The position numbers and the translations under genes were made by a program. DNA of 64,000 bases, from positions 496,001-560,000 of the forward strand of contig JAGBEG010000010.1 in assembly GCA_017937095.1 (NCBI GenBank), written 5' to 3'. The notes beneath the pieces are model-generated. The model was not told the DNA's origin, made no database searches, and was given only the letters and a program-made list of their open reading frames with translations. Numbering within the stretch: position 1 is the first letter of the stretch; each line of letters opens with the position of its first letter. The DNA is from Roseburia sp. GTDB lineage: Bacteria; Bacillota; Clostridia; Lachnospirales; Lachnospiraceae. Positions 8,566 to 15,491 of this stretch are shown here, piece after piece.

Positions 8566-9414
8566 TTATTCTTTTCCAAGCAGCGACGCCGCGACCATTC
8601 CGACGCCAAACAGCAGGATGCCGGCAACCACCGCCCACACGCCCGTACCGCTTAAGTCCATACCGGAAAGAACTGCGACCGGAGAGGAAAAAAGCAGTCC
8701 CAGGATAGCAAAATACGTCATTCTCTCGTGATTTTTCAGCAGATATTCAATCAGCTTTGCGACGAGAAACGCACCGACGAGCACGCCGATGCCAAACGGC
8801 AGGAGTATTCCGACACAGTAGAAAAGCGTTCCCATATCCAGCATCACGAGCGCAACGATAAATGCGTTGATGTGATCGATGATCGGCGTATAATAGCCGA
8901 GCGCCATTAAAAGCATCGACCCGCTCACCCCCGGAATCACCATCGTCGCCGCCGCGACAAGCCCGATAAAGAACAGTCCAAGGAGCGTTCCCGGCTCCAA
9001 GGAAAGTACCTTTTCCTTTCCTGTCCCAAGGAACTGCATTCCGATAATGAGTCCGAAAAAAAGTACAAATACAAGCAGCTCCGCCGCCTTCGGACGCTGT
9101 CCCGTTACCTTTGGCAGAAGCATCGGCAGTCCGCCGAAAATCAGTCCGATAAAAAGCAGCGCCGTCTGAAACGGATAATGTTCAAAAAAATACCCGATGA
9201 CAAAAGAAAGTCCCACAATTCCGATTCCCATCCCGACCGCATAGGGTAAAAGCGTCCGGATGCTCTGCTTCAAATGACGGAAGACCCCTGTCACCGCACC
9301 GATCATTTCATCGTAAATTCCCATGGACACCATCATCGTGCCTCCGCTGACGCCCGGAATGATATTGGCGACCCCGATTGCAATTCCTCTTATAATATCT
9401 TTTATGAATTCCAT
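8566..9414 (-). CDS. DUF368 membrane protein, PopT-like undecaprenyl phosphate translocase
   Basis: A 282-residue integral membrane protein. The two family signatures are present as an internal pair: GVANIIPGVSGGTMM near 14-28 and ATMVIPGVSGSMLLMALGYY near 156-175, indicating an inverted-repeat transporter fold. DUF368 proteins (PopT) have been shown in other bacteria to return undecaprenyl phosphate to the inner leaflet for reuse in wall synthesis; assignment here is by family. It is 17 bases downstream of the Na/Pi-type gene and ends at a terminator. The same region carries uppS, which makes the lipid precursor. Confidence 0.82.
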   Translation of the reverse strand: MEFIKDIIRGIAIGVANIIPGVSGGTMMVSMGIYDEMIGAVTGVFRHLKQSIRTLLPYAVGMGIGIVGLSFVIGYFFEHYPFQTALLFIGLIFGGLPMLLPKVTGQRPKAAELLVFVLFFGLIIGMQFLGTGKEKVLSLEPGTLLGLFFIGLVAAATMVIPGVSGSMLLMALGYYTPIIDHINAFIVALVMLDMGTLFYCVGILLPFGIGVLVGAFLVAKLIEYLLKNHERMTYFAILGLLFSSPVAVLSGMDLSGTGVWAVVAGILLFGVGMVAASLLGKE

Positions 9415-9431
9415 AAATCCTCCATTTTCCT

Positions 9432-10409
9432 TTAATGTATGTTGATTTCTGCCAGACGTTTTGTTCCCCGTTTTTCATCGGGCAAAATCCGTTCTGCCAT
9501 GCCGGCGAGCAGATTTCCCGCCGGGAGTAAAAGAAGCGTCGTTCCGATATTGAAGAACGTATGCATATTTGCGATCTGCGCCGCAGGCCTGCCCGGCGTC
9601 AGACCGCCCACCCATGCCGTAAACGGCGTCAGCATACAAAGACCAGTGAACACGGCTGTTCCTATGATATTGAACACCAGATGAACGATCGTTGTCCGCT
9701 TCGCATTTCTGCTGGTTCCAATCGACGCAAGAATCGCCGTAATGCAGGTGCCGATATTCTGACCGAACAGGACATAGACTGCACCGGCAAAGCTGATTGC
9801 CCCGCTTTCCGCCAGCGTCTGCAAGATTCCCACCGACGCAGAGGACGACTGAATCGCAGCCGTAAATACCGTTCCCGCAAGAATCCCGGAAAGCGGATGC
9901 TCAAACCGGGTCATTGCCGCAAGAAACGCCTCCGACTCACTAAGCGGCTGCATCGCAGCACTCATCATCTCCATGCCAAGGAACAGGATTCCAAGGCCGG
10001 CTACGATTTCTCCCACAGAAGACACCTTCTCTTTTCGCGAAAACACGACGACCGCAACGCCAAGGAATGCGATCAGGGGCGCCGCCTCCCCTATGTCGAG
10101 CGCGATAAGCTGACCGGTAATCGTCGTGCCGATATTCGCTCCCATGATGACCCAGACCGCCTGACGGAGCGTCATCATACCGGAATTGACAAATCCGACC
10201 ACCATCACCGTTGTTGCCGACGAGGACTGGATAATGGCAGTTACAACAGTCCCGACCGCAACCCCCAGAAAGCGGTTCTGTGTCAGCCGTTCCAGAAACT
10301 GCTTCATCCGGTCTCCCGCCGCCTGATTCAAGCCGCCGCTCATCTGATGCATGCCGTATAAAAAGAGCGCAAGCCCTCCCAGCAATGCAAAAAAATCTTT
10401 GTACTCCAT
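9432..10409 (-). CDS. Na+/phosphate symporter family protein, short form without PhoU domain
   Basis: The ATG at 10409 (MEYKDFFALLGGLALFLYG) follows AAAGGAGG and replaces a longer reading. The 325-residue membrane protein has both repeats typical of NptA/SLC34-like carriers: QSSSATTVMVVGFVN near 66-80 and IQSSSASVGILQTL near 185-198, each with the QSSS motif that binds Na+ and phosphate. The usual C-terminal PhoU-like cytoplasmic domain is absent; the protein ends just after the last membrane segment. It heads a two-gene operon with the DUF368 gene. Confidence 0.88.
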   Translation of the reverse strand: MEYKDFFALLGGLALFLYGMHQMSGGLNQAAGDRMKQFLERLTQNRFLGVAVGTVVTAIIQSSSATTVMVVGFVNSGMMTLRQAVWVIMGANIGTTITGQLIALDIGEAAPLIAFLGVAVVVFSRKEKVSSVGEIVAGLGILFLGMEMMSAAMQPLSESEAFLAAMTRFEHPLSGILAGTVFTAAIQSSSASVGILQTLAESGAISFAGAVYVLFGQNIGTCITAILASIGTSRNAKRTTIVHLVFNIIGTAVFTGLCMLTPFTAWVGGLTPGRPAAQIANMHTFFNIGTTLLLLPAGNLLAGMAERILPDEKRGTKRLAEINIH

Positions 10410-10433
10410 GCTTCCTCCTTTCCGCCTTTTCCC

Positions 10434-10462
10434 AAAATAGCAAAGCCGTTTTTTCTTGTCAA
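10434..10462 (-). promoter_or_regulatory. Promoter of the nptA-DUF368 operon
   Basis: Minus strand TTGACA (10457-10462), 17-base spacer, TATTTT (10434-10439), about 25 bases before the gene start. Near-consensus sigma-A site. Confidence 0.75.
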
Positions 10463-10524
10463 TCGCGCAGCGCAAATTCTGACGTCAAGGAAACGTTAAA
10501 TTTTTCGAAACTGGTTTTGGGGAA

Positions 10525-10553
10525 TTGATTTCCCGGGCAATAACCGATAAAAT
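10525..10553 (+). promoter_or_regulatory. Promoter of the DUF1538-PII operon
   Basis: Plus strand TTGATT (10525-10530), 17-base spacer, TAAAAT (10548-10553). It is divergent from the nptA promoter, only about 60 bases away. The leader to the TTG start is about 70 bases. Confidence 0.7.
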
Positions 10554-10632
10554 AGATAATGATTTGTAATGTGCTTATAAAATTATGTAACTCTATCAAC
10601 CAGTCAACCAACAGAAAGTATGTGATGCAAAC

Positions 10633-12153
10633 TTGAACCAAAAATTAAAAGAAAAAATCGACGAATCCGTAAGCGCCGTGCTTCCGATCACCGTCATCGT
10701 GCTGCTCCTCAGCATCTTTGTCGTGCCCATGGAAACCGGAACCATCGCGCTGTTTCTGGTCGGAGCGCTCATGCTGATCATCGGCATGGCATTTTTCCAA
10801 CTGGGTGCGGAAATGGCGATGACCCCCCTTGGAGAAGGCGTCGGCTCTCAGATTATGAAGACGAAGCGCTTATCCGTTCTTGTAATCGTCTGCTTTATCA
10901 TGGGCGTCATCATCACCATCGCAGAGCCGGATCTTGCGGTACTCGCCAATCAGGTACCCTCTATTCCAAACAATGTTTTAATCTGGACCGTTGCCGTAGG
11001 CGTTGGCTTATTTCTCGTCATGGCAGTCCTTCGAATCTTGTTTAAACTAAGTCTTCCATTGCTTTTATGCATTCTGTACGGAGCTTTATTTCTTCTGTCT
11101 TTTGCGGCTCCCGCTGATTTTATCGCAGTTGCGTTCGATTCCGGCGGTGTCACCACAGGTCCTATGACCGTTCCTTTTATCATGGCAATCGGTATTGGTC
11201 TTTCCTCGACGCGAAGTGACAAGGATGGTTCCAGCGACAGTTTCGGTCTGATTTCCTTCTGCAGCATCGGTCCGATCGTCATGGTGCTCCTGCTCGGTAT
11301 TTTCTATCACCCGACAGATGCGGCGTACAATGCCACCGTGATACCGGATGTCATTACCATGCAGGATGTTATGCGCGAATTTGTACATATGGTTCCCGAT
11401 TACGGAAAGGAGGTATTCACTTCCATCCTTCCGGTTCTGATCGTGTTCCTGCTGTTTCAGTTGATTTCCAGGCGTTATCACAGGATGCAGATGATCAAGA
11501 TGCTCGTGGGCTTTCTCTATACGATCATCGGTCTGATTCTGTTCCTCACGGGCGTCAATGTTGGTTTCGCACCTGTGGGAAGCCTGCTCGGAAGCAGCCT
11601 TGCAGCTCAGACCTGGAAATGGGTGCTGATTCCGATCGGCGCTCTCATCGGTTATTACATTGTAAAAGCAGAGCCTGCCGTTCAGGTCTTAAACAAACAG
11701 GTGGAAGATGTCACCAACGGATCGATTTCACGCGAGGCGATGAACTTATGTCTCTCCATAGGCGTCTCCGCTTCCGTTGCGCTTGCCATGCTTCGCGTGC
11801 TCACCGGAATCAGCATCTACTGGCTTCTGATTCCCGGTTATATCGCAGCCCTTACGCTCACCCGTTTCGTTCCGAAGGTCTTCGTGGGTATCGCGTTTGA
11901 CTCCGGTGGTGTTGCAAGTGGTCCTATGACCTCGACGTTCCTTCTGCCGCTCGCAATGGGCGCATGTACCGCAGTCGGAGGCAACGTCGTTACCGACGCA
12001 TTCGGCGTCGTCGCCATGGTCGCCATGGCTCCGCTTATCGCCATCCAGATCATGGGCGTCCTCTATCATATCAAGCTGAAGAAGTCCACGTTCGCAACGG
12101 TTGTCATGGAAGACATCGACGACAACGCGATTCTGGATTTTGAGGAGGAATGA
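10633..12153 (+). CDS. Duplicated DUF1538 integral membrane protein (putative transporter)
   Basis: A 506-residue polytopic membrane protein made of two homologous halves. Each half carries the motif FDSGGVTTGPMT (about residue 169) or FDSGGVASGPMT (about residue 421), roughly 250 residues apart, each ending a hydrophobic segment. DUF1538 proteins are uncharacterised; the duplicated, re-entrant-like motif suggests a transporter, which is inference. Translation starts at TTG: no ATG or GTG is available between the upstream stop and the conserved start MNQKLKEK, and the ribosome site is the unusual TGTGAT, complementary to the distal part of the anti-Shine-Dalgarno, six bases upstream. It is followed at once by a tandem PII-like gene, overlapping start and stop regions. 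Confidence 0.88.
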   Translation: MNQKLKEKIDESVSAVLPITVIVLLLSIFVVPMETGTIALFLVGALMLIIGMAFFQLGAEMAMTPLGEGVGSQIMKTKRLSVLVIVCFIMGVIITIAEPDLAVLANQVPSIPNNVLIWTVAVGVGLFLVMAVLRILFKLSLPLLLCILYGALFLLSFAAPADFIAVAFDSGGVTTGPMTVPFIMAIGIGLSSTRSDKDGSSDSFGLISFCSIGPIVMVLLLGIFYHPTDAAYNATVIPDVITMQDVMREFVHMVPDYGKEVFTSILPVLIVFLLFQLISRRYHRMQMIKMLVGFLYTIIGLILFLTGVNVGFAPVGSLLGSSLAAQTWKWVLIPIGALIGYYIVKAEPAVQVLNKQVEDVTNGSISREAMNLCLSIGVSASVALAMLRVLTGISIYWLLIPGYIAALTLTRFVPKVFVGIAFDSGGVASGPMTSTFLLPLAMGACTAVGGNVVTDAFGVVAMVAMAPLIAIQIMGVLYHIKLKKSTFATVVMEDIDDNAILDFEEE

Positions 12154-12155
12154 TT

Positions 12156-12866
12156 ATGCAGAACTTATCAGTTGAAGATATACAGAAACGTCAGTCGTTC
12201 CGCTGTCTTATCATCATTGTGGATTCCAAGATGCGCGACAGGCTGGCTGAGTTTTTAAATGATTCCGGCATCCCCATTTATTATCAGATGCACGGGGTCG
12301 GAACAGTAAGCTCCGATTTCTTAAATTTATGCGGTCTGGGAGATCCCCACAAGAGTATCGCCATCTGCTTCGTTCCGCGCGAACGCACGAAGATACTTCT
12401 CGCAGAAATGAATCAGGCGCTGCAGCTCCACAAGAAGGGCACCGGCATCGCCGTGAGCATTCCGTTAGGCGGTATGCAGGGCTGGCTCTATAAACTGCTC
12501 GGCAGTACCGCAGAAGAATCCGCTATGGAAGATCTGAAGAAAGAAGGGAAAAAAATGAGTGAAACGATCACACATGCAATGATACTTGTCACCATTAATC
12601 AGGGCTACAGCGACGACGTGATGTACACGGCAAGAGCCGCAGGTGCAACCGGCGGCACAATTCTTAAGGGTCTTAAATGCAGCCCCGCAGAAGTCGCCAA
12701 GCGCTTCGGCATTCCGATTCAGGAGGAACAGGAGGTCATCGCCATCGTTGTTCCCAAGGATAAGAAGACGGAAATCATGGCAGCCATCAGCAAGGATCAT
12801 GGCATCACTACCCCGGCGCACGGCATTACCGTATCGCTTCCGGTCGATGCGATCATGGGATTATAA
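12156..12866 (+). CDS. Tandem PII-like regulatory protein associated with DUF1538
   Basis: A 236-residue soluble protein with two PII-like ferredoxin-fold domains, about 10-110 and 130-236. Both contain a GxG turn after a variable segment and end similarly (GIAVSIPLGGMQG and GITVSLPVDAIMG, like the GIAFSLPVD ending of PII relatives). Canonical GlnB/GlnK nucleotide and uridylylation motifs are not obvious. PII proteins sense 2-oxoglutarate/ATP and gate membrane transporters, so the natural inference is control of the preceding DUF1538 protein, as GlnK controls AmtB. The ATG at 12156 has GGAGG at seven bases; the ATG at 12150 is too close to it. A terminator follows. Confidence 0.78.
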   Translation: MQNLSVEDIQKRQSFRCLIIIVDSKMRDRLAEFLNDSGIPIYYQMHGVGTVSSDFLNLCGLGDPHKSIAICFVPRERTKILLAEMNQALQLHKKGTGIAVSIPLGGMQGWLYKLLGSTAEESAMEDLKKEGKKMSETITHAMILVTINQGYSDDVMYTARAAGATGGTILKGLKCSPAEVAKRFGIPIQEEQEVIAIVVPKDKKTEIMAAISKDHGITTPAHGITVSLPVDAIMGL

Positions 12867-12902
12867 CCCCTTTTACACATGAAACGACGCTGTATTTTCC
12901 GC

Positions 12903-12944
12903 AAAAAAACGGATGGCAGATAAGAAACTGCCATCCGTTTTTTA
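12903..12944. terminator. Bidirectional terminator between PII gene and kinase gene
   Basis: AAAAAACGGATGGCAG pairs with CTGCCATCCGTTTTTT around an 8-base loop, giving A-tract and T-tract on both sides. It serves the plus-strand PII gene and the converging minus-strand kinase gene, which ends at 12945. Confidence 0.92.
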
Positions 12945-15491
12945 TTATCCGAGAAATTGCTGCAATGTACGCATACACTCTTTAAAATCAATCGGCTTTG
13001 CCAGATGCCCGTTCATTCCGCAATCAATACAATATTGTACATCATCCGAGAATGCATCCGCTGTCATCGCTATGATCGGGATATCATTGTCCGCACGCTC
13101 AAGCTCTCTGATTGCCTTTGTGGCATCGTAGCCATTCATGACCGGCATACGGATATCCATCAGGATCGCATCATAATATCCGATCTCGGAGCTTTTAAAC
13201 TTCTCGACACAGTCTTCGCCGTTGACCGCGCGCTCAAGCGCAAGTCCCGACGGAGCAAGGATCTCAAAAGCAACCTCCCAGTTGATATCAATATCCTCCG
13301 CCACTAAGACGCGCTTCCCCGGGAACTCCACTTTCAGTTCGTCCTTTTTCTCCTGTGCGTTGTTATACCCCTCTATGTACTGACTCAGCCGTTCATATAA
13401 TGTCGATTTAAAAAGAGGTTTGGGAATAAATCCTTCCACCACCAGCGAATTTACCTCGTCCTCCACATCGCTCCAGTCATAGGCAGAAACCAGAAATACG
13501 GGAACTTCCTTTCCTACACGCTCACGGATTTTGCGGATCGTCTCTATGCCGTCCATATTCGGCATCTTCCAGTCGATCAGGACAAAGTTATAATTATCAT
13601 TGTTGCTATAATGTTCCTCGATCATTTCAACTGCCTTGCTTCCATCCGTAGTCCATTCCGCATGGATGCCAAGCTCCTCGAGATTTGCAACGGCACTGGT
13701 GCACAAATACTCATTATCGTCAACCACCAGTACATTCCAGGAGGGAAGCTTCATCTCCTCCTCTTTGACCTCTGATTTCTTCAGATCCAGAATGACATGA
13801 AATTCACTGCCCTTCTGCTTTTCACTGTGTAACTCAATGCTGCCTCCCATGAGGTCAACAATTGATTTCGTGATCGACATTCCAAGTCCGGTTCCGGTAA
13901 TCTGCTGGCTATACTCCGTCTCTTCTCTGGCAAAAGTATCGTAAATCTTCTCCTGAAATTCCTTTGACATTCCGATTCCGGTATCCGCCACACGGAAATG
14001 CGTTCTGACATACTCCTCTCCCTTTGGAGAAGGTTCCTGATACAGATATACGTCAACCCTTCCTTCCTCATATGTGAATTTTACGGCGTTGGACAAAAGG
14101 TTGATCAGTACCTGATTCAGACGGACGCTGTCGCAGTACACATTTTCCGATATAATATCGTGAATGAAAATGTCAAAGTGCTGCCTTTTTGCCTTGACCT
14201 GAGGCTGCATGATATTTACGATATCATCCATCGTACTTCTTAAGGACATGGCGTTTTCATTCAACTGCATCTTGCCGCTCTCAATTTTGGACATATCTAA
14301 AACATCATTGATCAATCCGAGCAAATGCTTGCTGGAGAGGCTGATTTTCTTGAGATATTCCGTCATCCGTACCGGATCCTGCACATTTCTCATAGCGATT
14401 TCCGTCATTCCGATAATGGCGTTCATCGGTGTGCGGATATCATGGCTCATACTCGAAAGGAACTCGCTCTTCGCCTTGTTTGCCTGAACCGCTTCTTTTC
14501 TCGACGCGGCGAGCGCCTCCATCTGCTGACGCGTCATATTATAGTACATAACGAAAAACGCAGCCATGCATAATACGATGATGATAACCGATGCGAGCGT
14601 CAGTCCGGTACGCATGGCATCCAGCTTGGTAATCGCATGGCCTATAATGCCTTCCGGCATGACAGCGATGAGATACCATTCGGAATTTTCCGAGATCGGC
14701 GAACAGTATATATGCATTTCCTCGCCGTGATAGCTGAGAAATGTAAAATAATCCTCATGCGCCCTCATCTTCGCTTTCAGTTCTTCTACGAACTGCTCCG
14801 CATCCTTTCCGTTGTATCGTTCCACCCCGGAAAGAAGACGGGAAAAATAGTCGTCGTCAGAGACATTGGAATTTTTTATGACAAACTTTCCCTCGTCATC
14901 AATGATATGAAAGTACATCTCGGAATCGTCATCTGACAGAAACAGCGCTTCATTCAGGTACTCCATCGGGATTCCCGCCAGCAGTGAAACACTCGTCTTA
15001 CCGCTGCTCATCTGATAATCCGCTCTTATGCCCAGGACCAGAAGCGCTTCTCCGTCCTCATTATACCCACGGGTCAGAATGCAGTCGTTCCTTTCCAGAC
15101 AGTCTAACGCCTTACCTGTATTGGCAACCCGAATCTTATCCCCGTAAATATTTTCAATCTCGCCATCATCAGCCAAAAAAGCCAGAGATGAAAATTCCCT
15201 GACTTCCGCACTGATCTGCAGTTGTTCCAGAATCTCTTCCCTGTCGCTCGCAGCATCCGGCGGCGTGCGCTTATAGACGCCCTCAATCTGAAGCATACGG
15301 ATACTTATGATCGAACTGAACTTCTGCTGAATCTGTTTGTTGATCTCAGACATATAAAGATTGCTCACTTCTACCACAGATTCCTCTGTTTTCGAAGACA
15401 TAAATGCAGCCAGAGCCACAAAAACAAGTATACATACAATAATGATGCTGATAAAGCTGCATTGCAAACGCTTCATTGTCTCTTTACTCAT
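12945..15491 (-). CDS. Hybrid sensor histidine kinase with two receiver domains
   Basis: An 848-residue membrane kinase. Order: transmembrane helix (about 12-32), extracellular double-Cache-like sensor (33-290), second helix (296-317), HisKA with H350 in SHDIRTPMN, HATPase with N box near 462-472 and G boxes DTGIGMS (503-509) and GTGLGMS (533-539), a first receiver (about 586-700, phosphoacceptor D640 in LIDWKMP) and a second receiver (727-845, D779 in LMDIRMP). All catalytic residues appear intact. It is the last gene of an Hpt-regulator-kinase operon, so phosphate probably moves H350 to receiver, to the separate Hpt, then to the response regulator. The ligand is unknown. Confidence 0.92.
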   Translation of the reverse strand: MSKETMKRLQCSFISIIIVCILVFVALAAFMSSKTEESVVEVSNLYMSEINKQIQQKFSSIISIRMLQIEGVYKRTPPDAASDREEILEQLQISAEVREFSSLAFLADDGEIENIYGDKIRVANTGKALDCLERNDCILTRGYNEDGEALLVLGIRADYQMSSGKTSVSLLAGIPMEYLNEALFLSDDDSEMYFHIIDDEGKFVIKNSNVSDDDYFSRLLSGVERYNGKDAEQFVEELKAKMRAHEDYFTFLSYHGEEMHIYCSPISENSEWYLIAVMPEGIIGHAITKLDAMRTGLTLASVIIIVLCMAAFFVMYYNMTRQQMEALAASRKEAVQANKAKSEFLSSMSHDIRTPMNAIIGMTEIAMRNVQDPVRMTEYLKKISLSSKHLLGLINDVLDMSKIESGKMQLNENAMSLRSTMDDIVNIMQPQVKAKRQHFDIFIHDIISENVYCDSVRLNQVLINLLSNAVKFTYEEGRVDVYLYQEPSPKGEEYVRTHFRVADTGIGMSKEFQEKIYDTFAREETEYSQQITGTGLGMSITKSIVDLMGGSIELHSEKQKGSEFHVILDLKKSEVKEEEMKLPSWNVLVVDDNEYLCTSAVANLEELGIHAEWTTDGSKAVEMIEEHYSNNDNYNFVLIDWKMPNMDGIETIRKIRERVGKEVPVFLVSAYDWSDVEDEVNSLVVEGFIPKPLFKSTLYERLSQYIEGYNNAQEKKDELKVEFPGKRVLVAEDIDINWEVAFEILAPSGLALERAVNGEDCVEKFKSSEIGYYDAILMDIRMPVMNGYDATKAIRELERADNDIPIIAMTADAFSDDVQYCIDCGMNGHLAKPIDFKECMRTLQQFLG

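Follow-up and report, generated by a model that had tools for sequence, protein, structure and literature searches.

A two-gene unit in a Roseburia genome probably pairs an UmpAB-type (DUF1538) cation/proton antiporter with a dedicated regulator of the PII family. It lies in the window, i.e. the whole stretch of 64,000 nucleotides of contig JAGBEG010000010.1 that was analysed and from whose first letter all positions are counted. The first gene (10633..12153, plus strand), with a TTG start, encodes a fused UmpA-UmpB-like membrane protein of 506 amino acids, and the second (12150..12866, plus strand) a protein of 238 amino acids with two PII-like domains in tandem. Na+(K+)/H+ antiport helps to set cytoplasmic pH and salt balance and, if the reading is true, a small-molecule signal would act directly on a common antiporter of gut bacteria.

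The PII-like reading frame begins within the last 4 bases of the DUF1538 gene, and the pair stands, as first described, on the strand opposite to its surroundings, the genes at 9432-10412 and 12945-15491 both being on the minus strand. The TTG at 10633 is aligned in all seven Roseburia-type regions compared, the window included, and in L033 and L034 the aligned TTG is eight codons before the point at which tblastn homology begins. The source genome is close to Roseburia hominis, and the DUF1538 protein of L032 is 94% identical to that encoded in the window. Both genes look to be under purifying selection from their substitution patterns, with dN/dS of 0.05-0.09 in all six comparisons for the DUF1538 gene and 0.08-0.15 in five of seven for the PII-like gene (dS was not computable in the other two), ratios that are rough given dS above 1 in most comparisons. 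Upstream, on the minus strand (8566-10475), are Na/Pi-cotransporter-type and undecaprenyl-phosphate-translocase-like genes, and the convergent gene at 12945-15491 encodes a hybrid histidine kinase that has two receiver domains and weakly matches a Cache-type sensor.

The cassette had been credited with its own promoter and terminator. The candidate sigma-70-like promoter, TTGATT-17-TAAAAT (10525..10553, plus strand), is at chance level by scan (two found against 3.3 expected), and a −35/−10 pair with equal spacing recurs at the equal place in five of the seven aligned regions, window included, as read by eye. The terminator is a strong bidirectional hairpin at 12904..12943, assigned to neither strand, with a folding energy of −25 kcal/mol and strand-wise z of −8.6 and −6.7. 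It is absent from the list of the consensus terminator scanner. Since T runs are present on both sides of the hairpin, it is probably common to the cassette and the convergent kinase gene.

Membership of the first protein in the DUF1538 family is clear (Pfam PF07556, E 4.8e-141, 467.6 bits against a gathering cut-off of 22.6). The match falls in two stretches, whose window coordinates were converted from those of the contig: copy 1 (10687..11304, plus strand) has EPD at residues 98-100 and FDSGGV at residues 168-173, copy 2 (11434..12063, plus strand) has AEP at 346-348 and FDSGGV at 422-427, and the internal duplication with two FDSGGV motifs is thereby borne out. Hydropathy and positive charge in 67 aligned proteins point to seven plus seven helices, with the halves inverted and both termini inside. 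The AlphaFold model (pLDDT 86, pTM 0.85) has helices in agreement with this, and they are broken near the EPD/AEP and FDSGG motifs. Among 71 aligned DUF1538 proteins, E98, E347 and D423 are invariant, and D100 and D169 nearly so. A Foldseek comparison of the model with the PDB gave zero matches at E ≤ 0.001, and a second look yielded weak matches only.

The substrate, initially taken to be undescribed, does have a published precedent in the family. UmpAB of Halomonas zhaodongensis, a heterodimer with seven helices in each subunit, encoded by overlapping genes, has Na+(Li+,K+)/H+ antiport activity both in E. coli KNabc and in vesicles, and umpA and umpB subcloned alone are active in E. coli, according to the available text of PMC5484666. 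The NCBIfam models of both subunits match the Roseburia protein, UmpA (NF041627) at E 4.2e-55 and UmpB (NF041628) at E 8.1e-38, with scores of 186.7 and 130.3 bits that are far below the respective equivalog cut-offs of 490 and 500. Both models score low on the DUF1538 proteins of Methylocystis too.

The second product folds, by prediction, as two fused PII-like domains, N (residues 17-106, 12198..12467) and C (residues 142-236, 12573..12857), both on the plus strand; this was the original interpretation, and an unrelated fold, which would have told against it, was not seen. Profiles of the N and C domains match each other at 99.8% probability and the canonical P-II profile at 87% and 92% respectively, the DUF1538 controls being at 0.1%. 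The AlphaFold model (pLDDT 84) has the order beta-alpha-beta-beta-alpha-beta twice, its best structural matches are PII, PotN and SbtB, and solved PII structures fit both halves, so that in the predicted structure each domain has the ferredoxin-like fold of the PII superfamily. In direct search with Pfam P-II the Roseburia tandem protein has no match at E 1, while 59 of 70 aligned tandem proteins match at E 0.01 and all 22 single-domain relatives at E 0.001. It also scores 17.2 bits with the PG0541 model NF045581, whose curated cut-off is 45, and its sequence is devoid of the C-terminal CGPxGC R-loop by which SbtB-type proteins are known, placing it outside both groups. Elsewhere in the same genome are four other P-II matches, all above the Pfam cut-off. 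A canonical P-II domain ends a 563-residue frame of this genome (L142, G000:C9:235184-235498), perhaps a fusion of a transporter with PII.

The partnership of the two genes is near-obligate. A survey of neighbourhoods, the check on which the preliminary description had made its interpretation depend, places a PII-like domain directly downstream in 196 of the 208 distinct DUF1538 systems gathered, and 132 of the 135 genomes with DUF1538 in a Bacillota sample also hold the PII-like subfamily (DUF1538 was in 135 of 398 genomes and the subfamily in 137 of 396). Three genomes remain. G111, the sole genome with a broken DUF1538 (copy L248, interrupted by six stop codons), has no PII-like match listed, which favours a functional tie; in G335 the gene runs into the end of the contig; and in G453 a PII domain adjoins on inspection, its absence from the PII list presumably reflecting that sample being two genomes smaller. 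Conversely, five genomes are listed for PII only: two matches are weak, one is partial, and G392 and G439 have a lone PII-like gene directly upstream of a CitMHS/ArsB-type permease. These lone genes, in Bacillota genomes without a DUF1538 match, are at L252:3390-3707 and L253:3158-3589, and the best NCBIfam match of the permease, below cut-off, is MamN.

At shorter evolutionary distance the two genes come and go together. Within the genus both are present in the identical 15 of 36 genomes and neither in the other 21 (own genome included, several incomplete), with a Fisher p of 1.8e-10, a statistic that ignores phylogeny. The mismatches among all 60 relatives are G050 and G057, with DUF1538 only, and G037, with PII only, a genome that is 69% complete. 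In 72,556 plasmid records, searches with DUF1538 and with a Methylocystis P-II retrieved the identical nine. NCBI annotation labels the DUF1538 neighbour ‘P-II family nitrogen regulator’ in five of six plasmid regions opened, the sixth being without annotated features.

Besides 63 loci similar to the window's protein, the non-random census of 208 systems takes in plasmid records and hits of genome searches (mostly the top ones among the matches listed); it is de-duplicated by the last 180 residues and counts L067 twice. As to the 12 without a called PII domain, five (L018, L090, L094, L103, L181) had less than 600 bases of room, two (L233, L238) prove to have one when inspected, L248 is the interrupted copy and L194 a fragment of 56 residues beside an intact pair. 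The adjacent PII domain is truly absent from L210, L255 and L256, which have intact DUF1538, and two of their genomes (G050, G057) are without any. Even the commonest other neighbour families fall far behind the PII gene in frequency, ABC-ATPase-like products being found at 13 and response-regulator-like ones at 9 of 99 loci. At L257 and L258 a tandem PII-like gene stands apart from any DUF1538 gene, and at L257 a divergent putative permease of 455 residues without a Pfam match adjoins.

The canonical PII ligand residues are Arg9, Thr29, Gln39, Lys58, Lys90, Arg101 and Arg103 (available text of PMC8395244), and the Roseburia protein does not have the set with which GlnB/GlnK bind MgATP and 2-oxoglutarate. 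Arg9, Gln39, Lys90, Arg101 and Arg103 are replaced in the PII-like domains. Retention is mainly a property of C domains, most of which conserve Gly27, Thr29 (98% in tandems), Gly89 (83-100%) and a basic residue, often Lys58, at position 58, frequently with Phe92. Thr29, which contacts adenine, is found in 42% of N domains of tandems, and in separate N domains another residue is the common one. In single-domain relatives a G-x-T-x4-R-G core is invariant. Because the residues for 2-oxoglutarate and for the ATP phosphates are lost, sensing of MgATP/2-oxoglutarate in the known manner is unlikely; of the two ligands originally suggested, a nucleotide or 2-oxoglutarate, the second is thus disfavoured and the first stands as possible, since the residue pattern is compatible with an adenine ligand making fewer contacts through phosphate. 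The C domain of the Roseburia protein keeps Thr29 and has lost more than its relatives (Lys58 to Gln, Phe92 to Val, RGxG to LKCS), so its ligand may differ from theirs or have been lost.

Organization of the system is variable. The transporter halves are encoded by two genes or one, and the PII part is a single domain (e.g. on Methylocystis and Chelativorans plasmids), two genes, a tandem, a tandem plus one (L239) or three domains in one chain. For the last, the domain assignments differ in strength. All three pass the Pfam P-II stretch test in L229, and all three have E below 0.001 in L227 with a domain profile made for this analysis; by length and position L223, L224, L226 and L228 are also counted as three-domain, with two domains significant and the remaining one weak or not seen in L223, L224 and L226, and one significant in L228. 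The proteins concerned in L223, L224, L226, L227 and L228 are of 367-403 residues, reading as three PII-like domains of which some are weak, and follow long DUF1538 proteins (~630-710 residues if unbroken) that have additional loops inside or between their halves. With Pfam P-II, the PII-like proteins of L223, L227 and L228 have no match. In a further tandem protein (L054:2095-3234) a glycine-rich linker of ~150 residues lies between the two domains.

On the DUF1538 tree the PII arrangement requires at fewest 14 changes among 79 representatives (FastTree) or 12 among 45 (a more careful tree), and transporter fusion three and two respectively, one of the three being the frame-broken L085. The three-domain chain requires two origins on the trees, a single clade being rejected (AU p 7e-91) for a group that was named after the first tree seen. 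L229, with three domains in one chain, and L239, with two plus one, are sister systems that both total three domains, cut differently, which makes a trimer of unlike PII domains a live possibility. With two domains, the regulator encoded in the window falls short of a trimer by itself, so that the pseudo-trimeric form initially proposed does not follow for it; three-domain versions do exist in other genomes. Three chains of the common tandem form may assemble as an N3 plus C3 trimer or as a mixed ring. If the reading is true, the natural series of one, two, two plus one and three PII domains would allow natural proteins to be used to test which of the three PII sites are important.

In the mechanism that these features suggest, the 506-residue protein would be UmpA and UmpB fused, as two inversely oriented halves of seven helices each, and the conserved acidic EPD/AEP and FDSGG motifs in the broken helices would probably carry cation and proton. 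The tandem PII-like protein would bind directly at the cytoplasmic side and shift antiport up or down in response to a small ligand, for which an adenine nucleotide, though not the MgATP/2-oxoglutarate pair, is the likeliest candidate. Gating of a transporter by a dedicated PII protein would follow the analogy of GlnK-AmtB and SbtB-SbtA. The activity of the two ump genes alone in E. coli counts against any need for a regulator in basal antiport, and because of it the regulator would be expected to tune antiport rather than to enable it. Matches to the UmpA and UmpB models, the invariance or near-invariance of the acidic residues, the PII fold and co-occurrence speak for this reading. The shortfall from the equivalog cut-offs, DUF1538 loci without an adjacent PII domain (L210, L255, L256), PII-like genes without DUF1538 (G037, G392, G439) and the drift of the Roseburia C domain at ligand positions speak against it.

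A less likely alternative is that the PII-like protein does regulate DUF1538 and that the substrate here is another, e.g. a weak acid, bicarbonate or ammonium, antiport by UmpAB being one specialisation. UmpAB is the sole assayed DUF1538 pair found in the literature, its models fall short on the Roseburia protein, the PDB offers no clear match to the predicted fold from which a substrate could be borrowed, and the PII-like subfamily is also beside CitMHS/ArsB-type permeases in two genomes. However, the full or near invariance of the acidic motifs across the aligned family fits cation/proton exchange, and a model of growth pH has DUF1538 among its key Pfam features, together with other cation transport families (available text of PMC13255231). 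It is improbable that the PII-like protein senses nothing and serves constitutively in the structure or assembly of the transporter, a view to which frequent change in domain number per chain and the loss of most canonical ligand residues, from N domains above all, would be congenial; the positions kept in most C domains, the invariant core of single-domain relatives and the activity of UmpAB without such a subunit (available text of PMC5484666) argue otherwise. That the protein is an ordinary nitrogen regulator merely in the same operon would accord with its database label, yet is scarcely credible given four other P-II matches in the genome, joint gain and loss of the pair within the genus and the missing 2-oxoglutarate residues.

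A PII-gated antiporter in Roseburia may be one instance of something broader. The occurrence of a one-, two- and three-copy sensor across bacteria suggests a widespread, unstudied switch of ion antiport. More tentatively, PII-gated alkali-cation/proton antiporters with a membrane fold absent from the PDB could be widespread, with a regulator repeatedly turned from a one-gene, presumably homotrimeric PII into fused forms with specialised domains, and at least twice reaching a single-chain trimer whose unequal sites sense and gate asymmetrically. Among the openly available papers listed by the searches, none treats PII control of DUF1538. The terms ‘PII’ and ‘P-II’ are absent from the main text of the UmpAB paper (PMC5484666) and from PMC12093952, and ‘P-II’ from PMC13255231. 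For a PII-like protein tied to an alkali-cation antiporter the papers listed likewise gave nothing, though one PII-like protein is described beside a metal/proton exporter (available text of PMC7726332).

Relation to known systems is a matter of partial parallels. UmpAB and the Roseburia transporter have a common Pfam family and two homologous seven-helix halves, but UmpAB is encoded by two overlapping genes, whereas in the window both halves are fused in one chain that is followed by a PII-like gene. GlnK-AmtB and SbtB-SbtA are the precedents for control of transporters by PII-like proteins (available text of PMC13249358). AmtB-GlnK shares the pairing of a PII-fold protein with a channel or transporter; its transporter is different, and the Roseburia PII-like protein has a shorter T-loop and is without Gln39, Lys90, Arg101 and Arg103. 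SbtB-SbtA is a bicarbonate transporter with a PII-like regulator, the transporter again differing from that in the window, and SbtB is small and homotrimeric with a CGPxGC R-loop (same source), unlike the two-domain protein here. PotN of Lentilactobacillus hilgardii (7o4x) is a single domain rather than two. PII-NG, assumed here to form one group with the PG0541 family, adjoins CzcABC, a metal/proton exporter (Sant'Anna 2009, via the available text of PMC7726332), and so is a case of genetic linkage between a PII-like protein and a proton antiporter or transporter, though with a metal exporter and not DUF1538 as its partner. A PII-fold regulator beside a transporter is a known kind of pairing.
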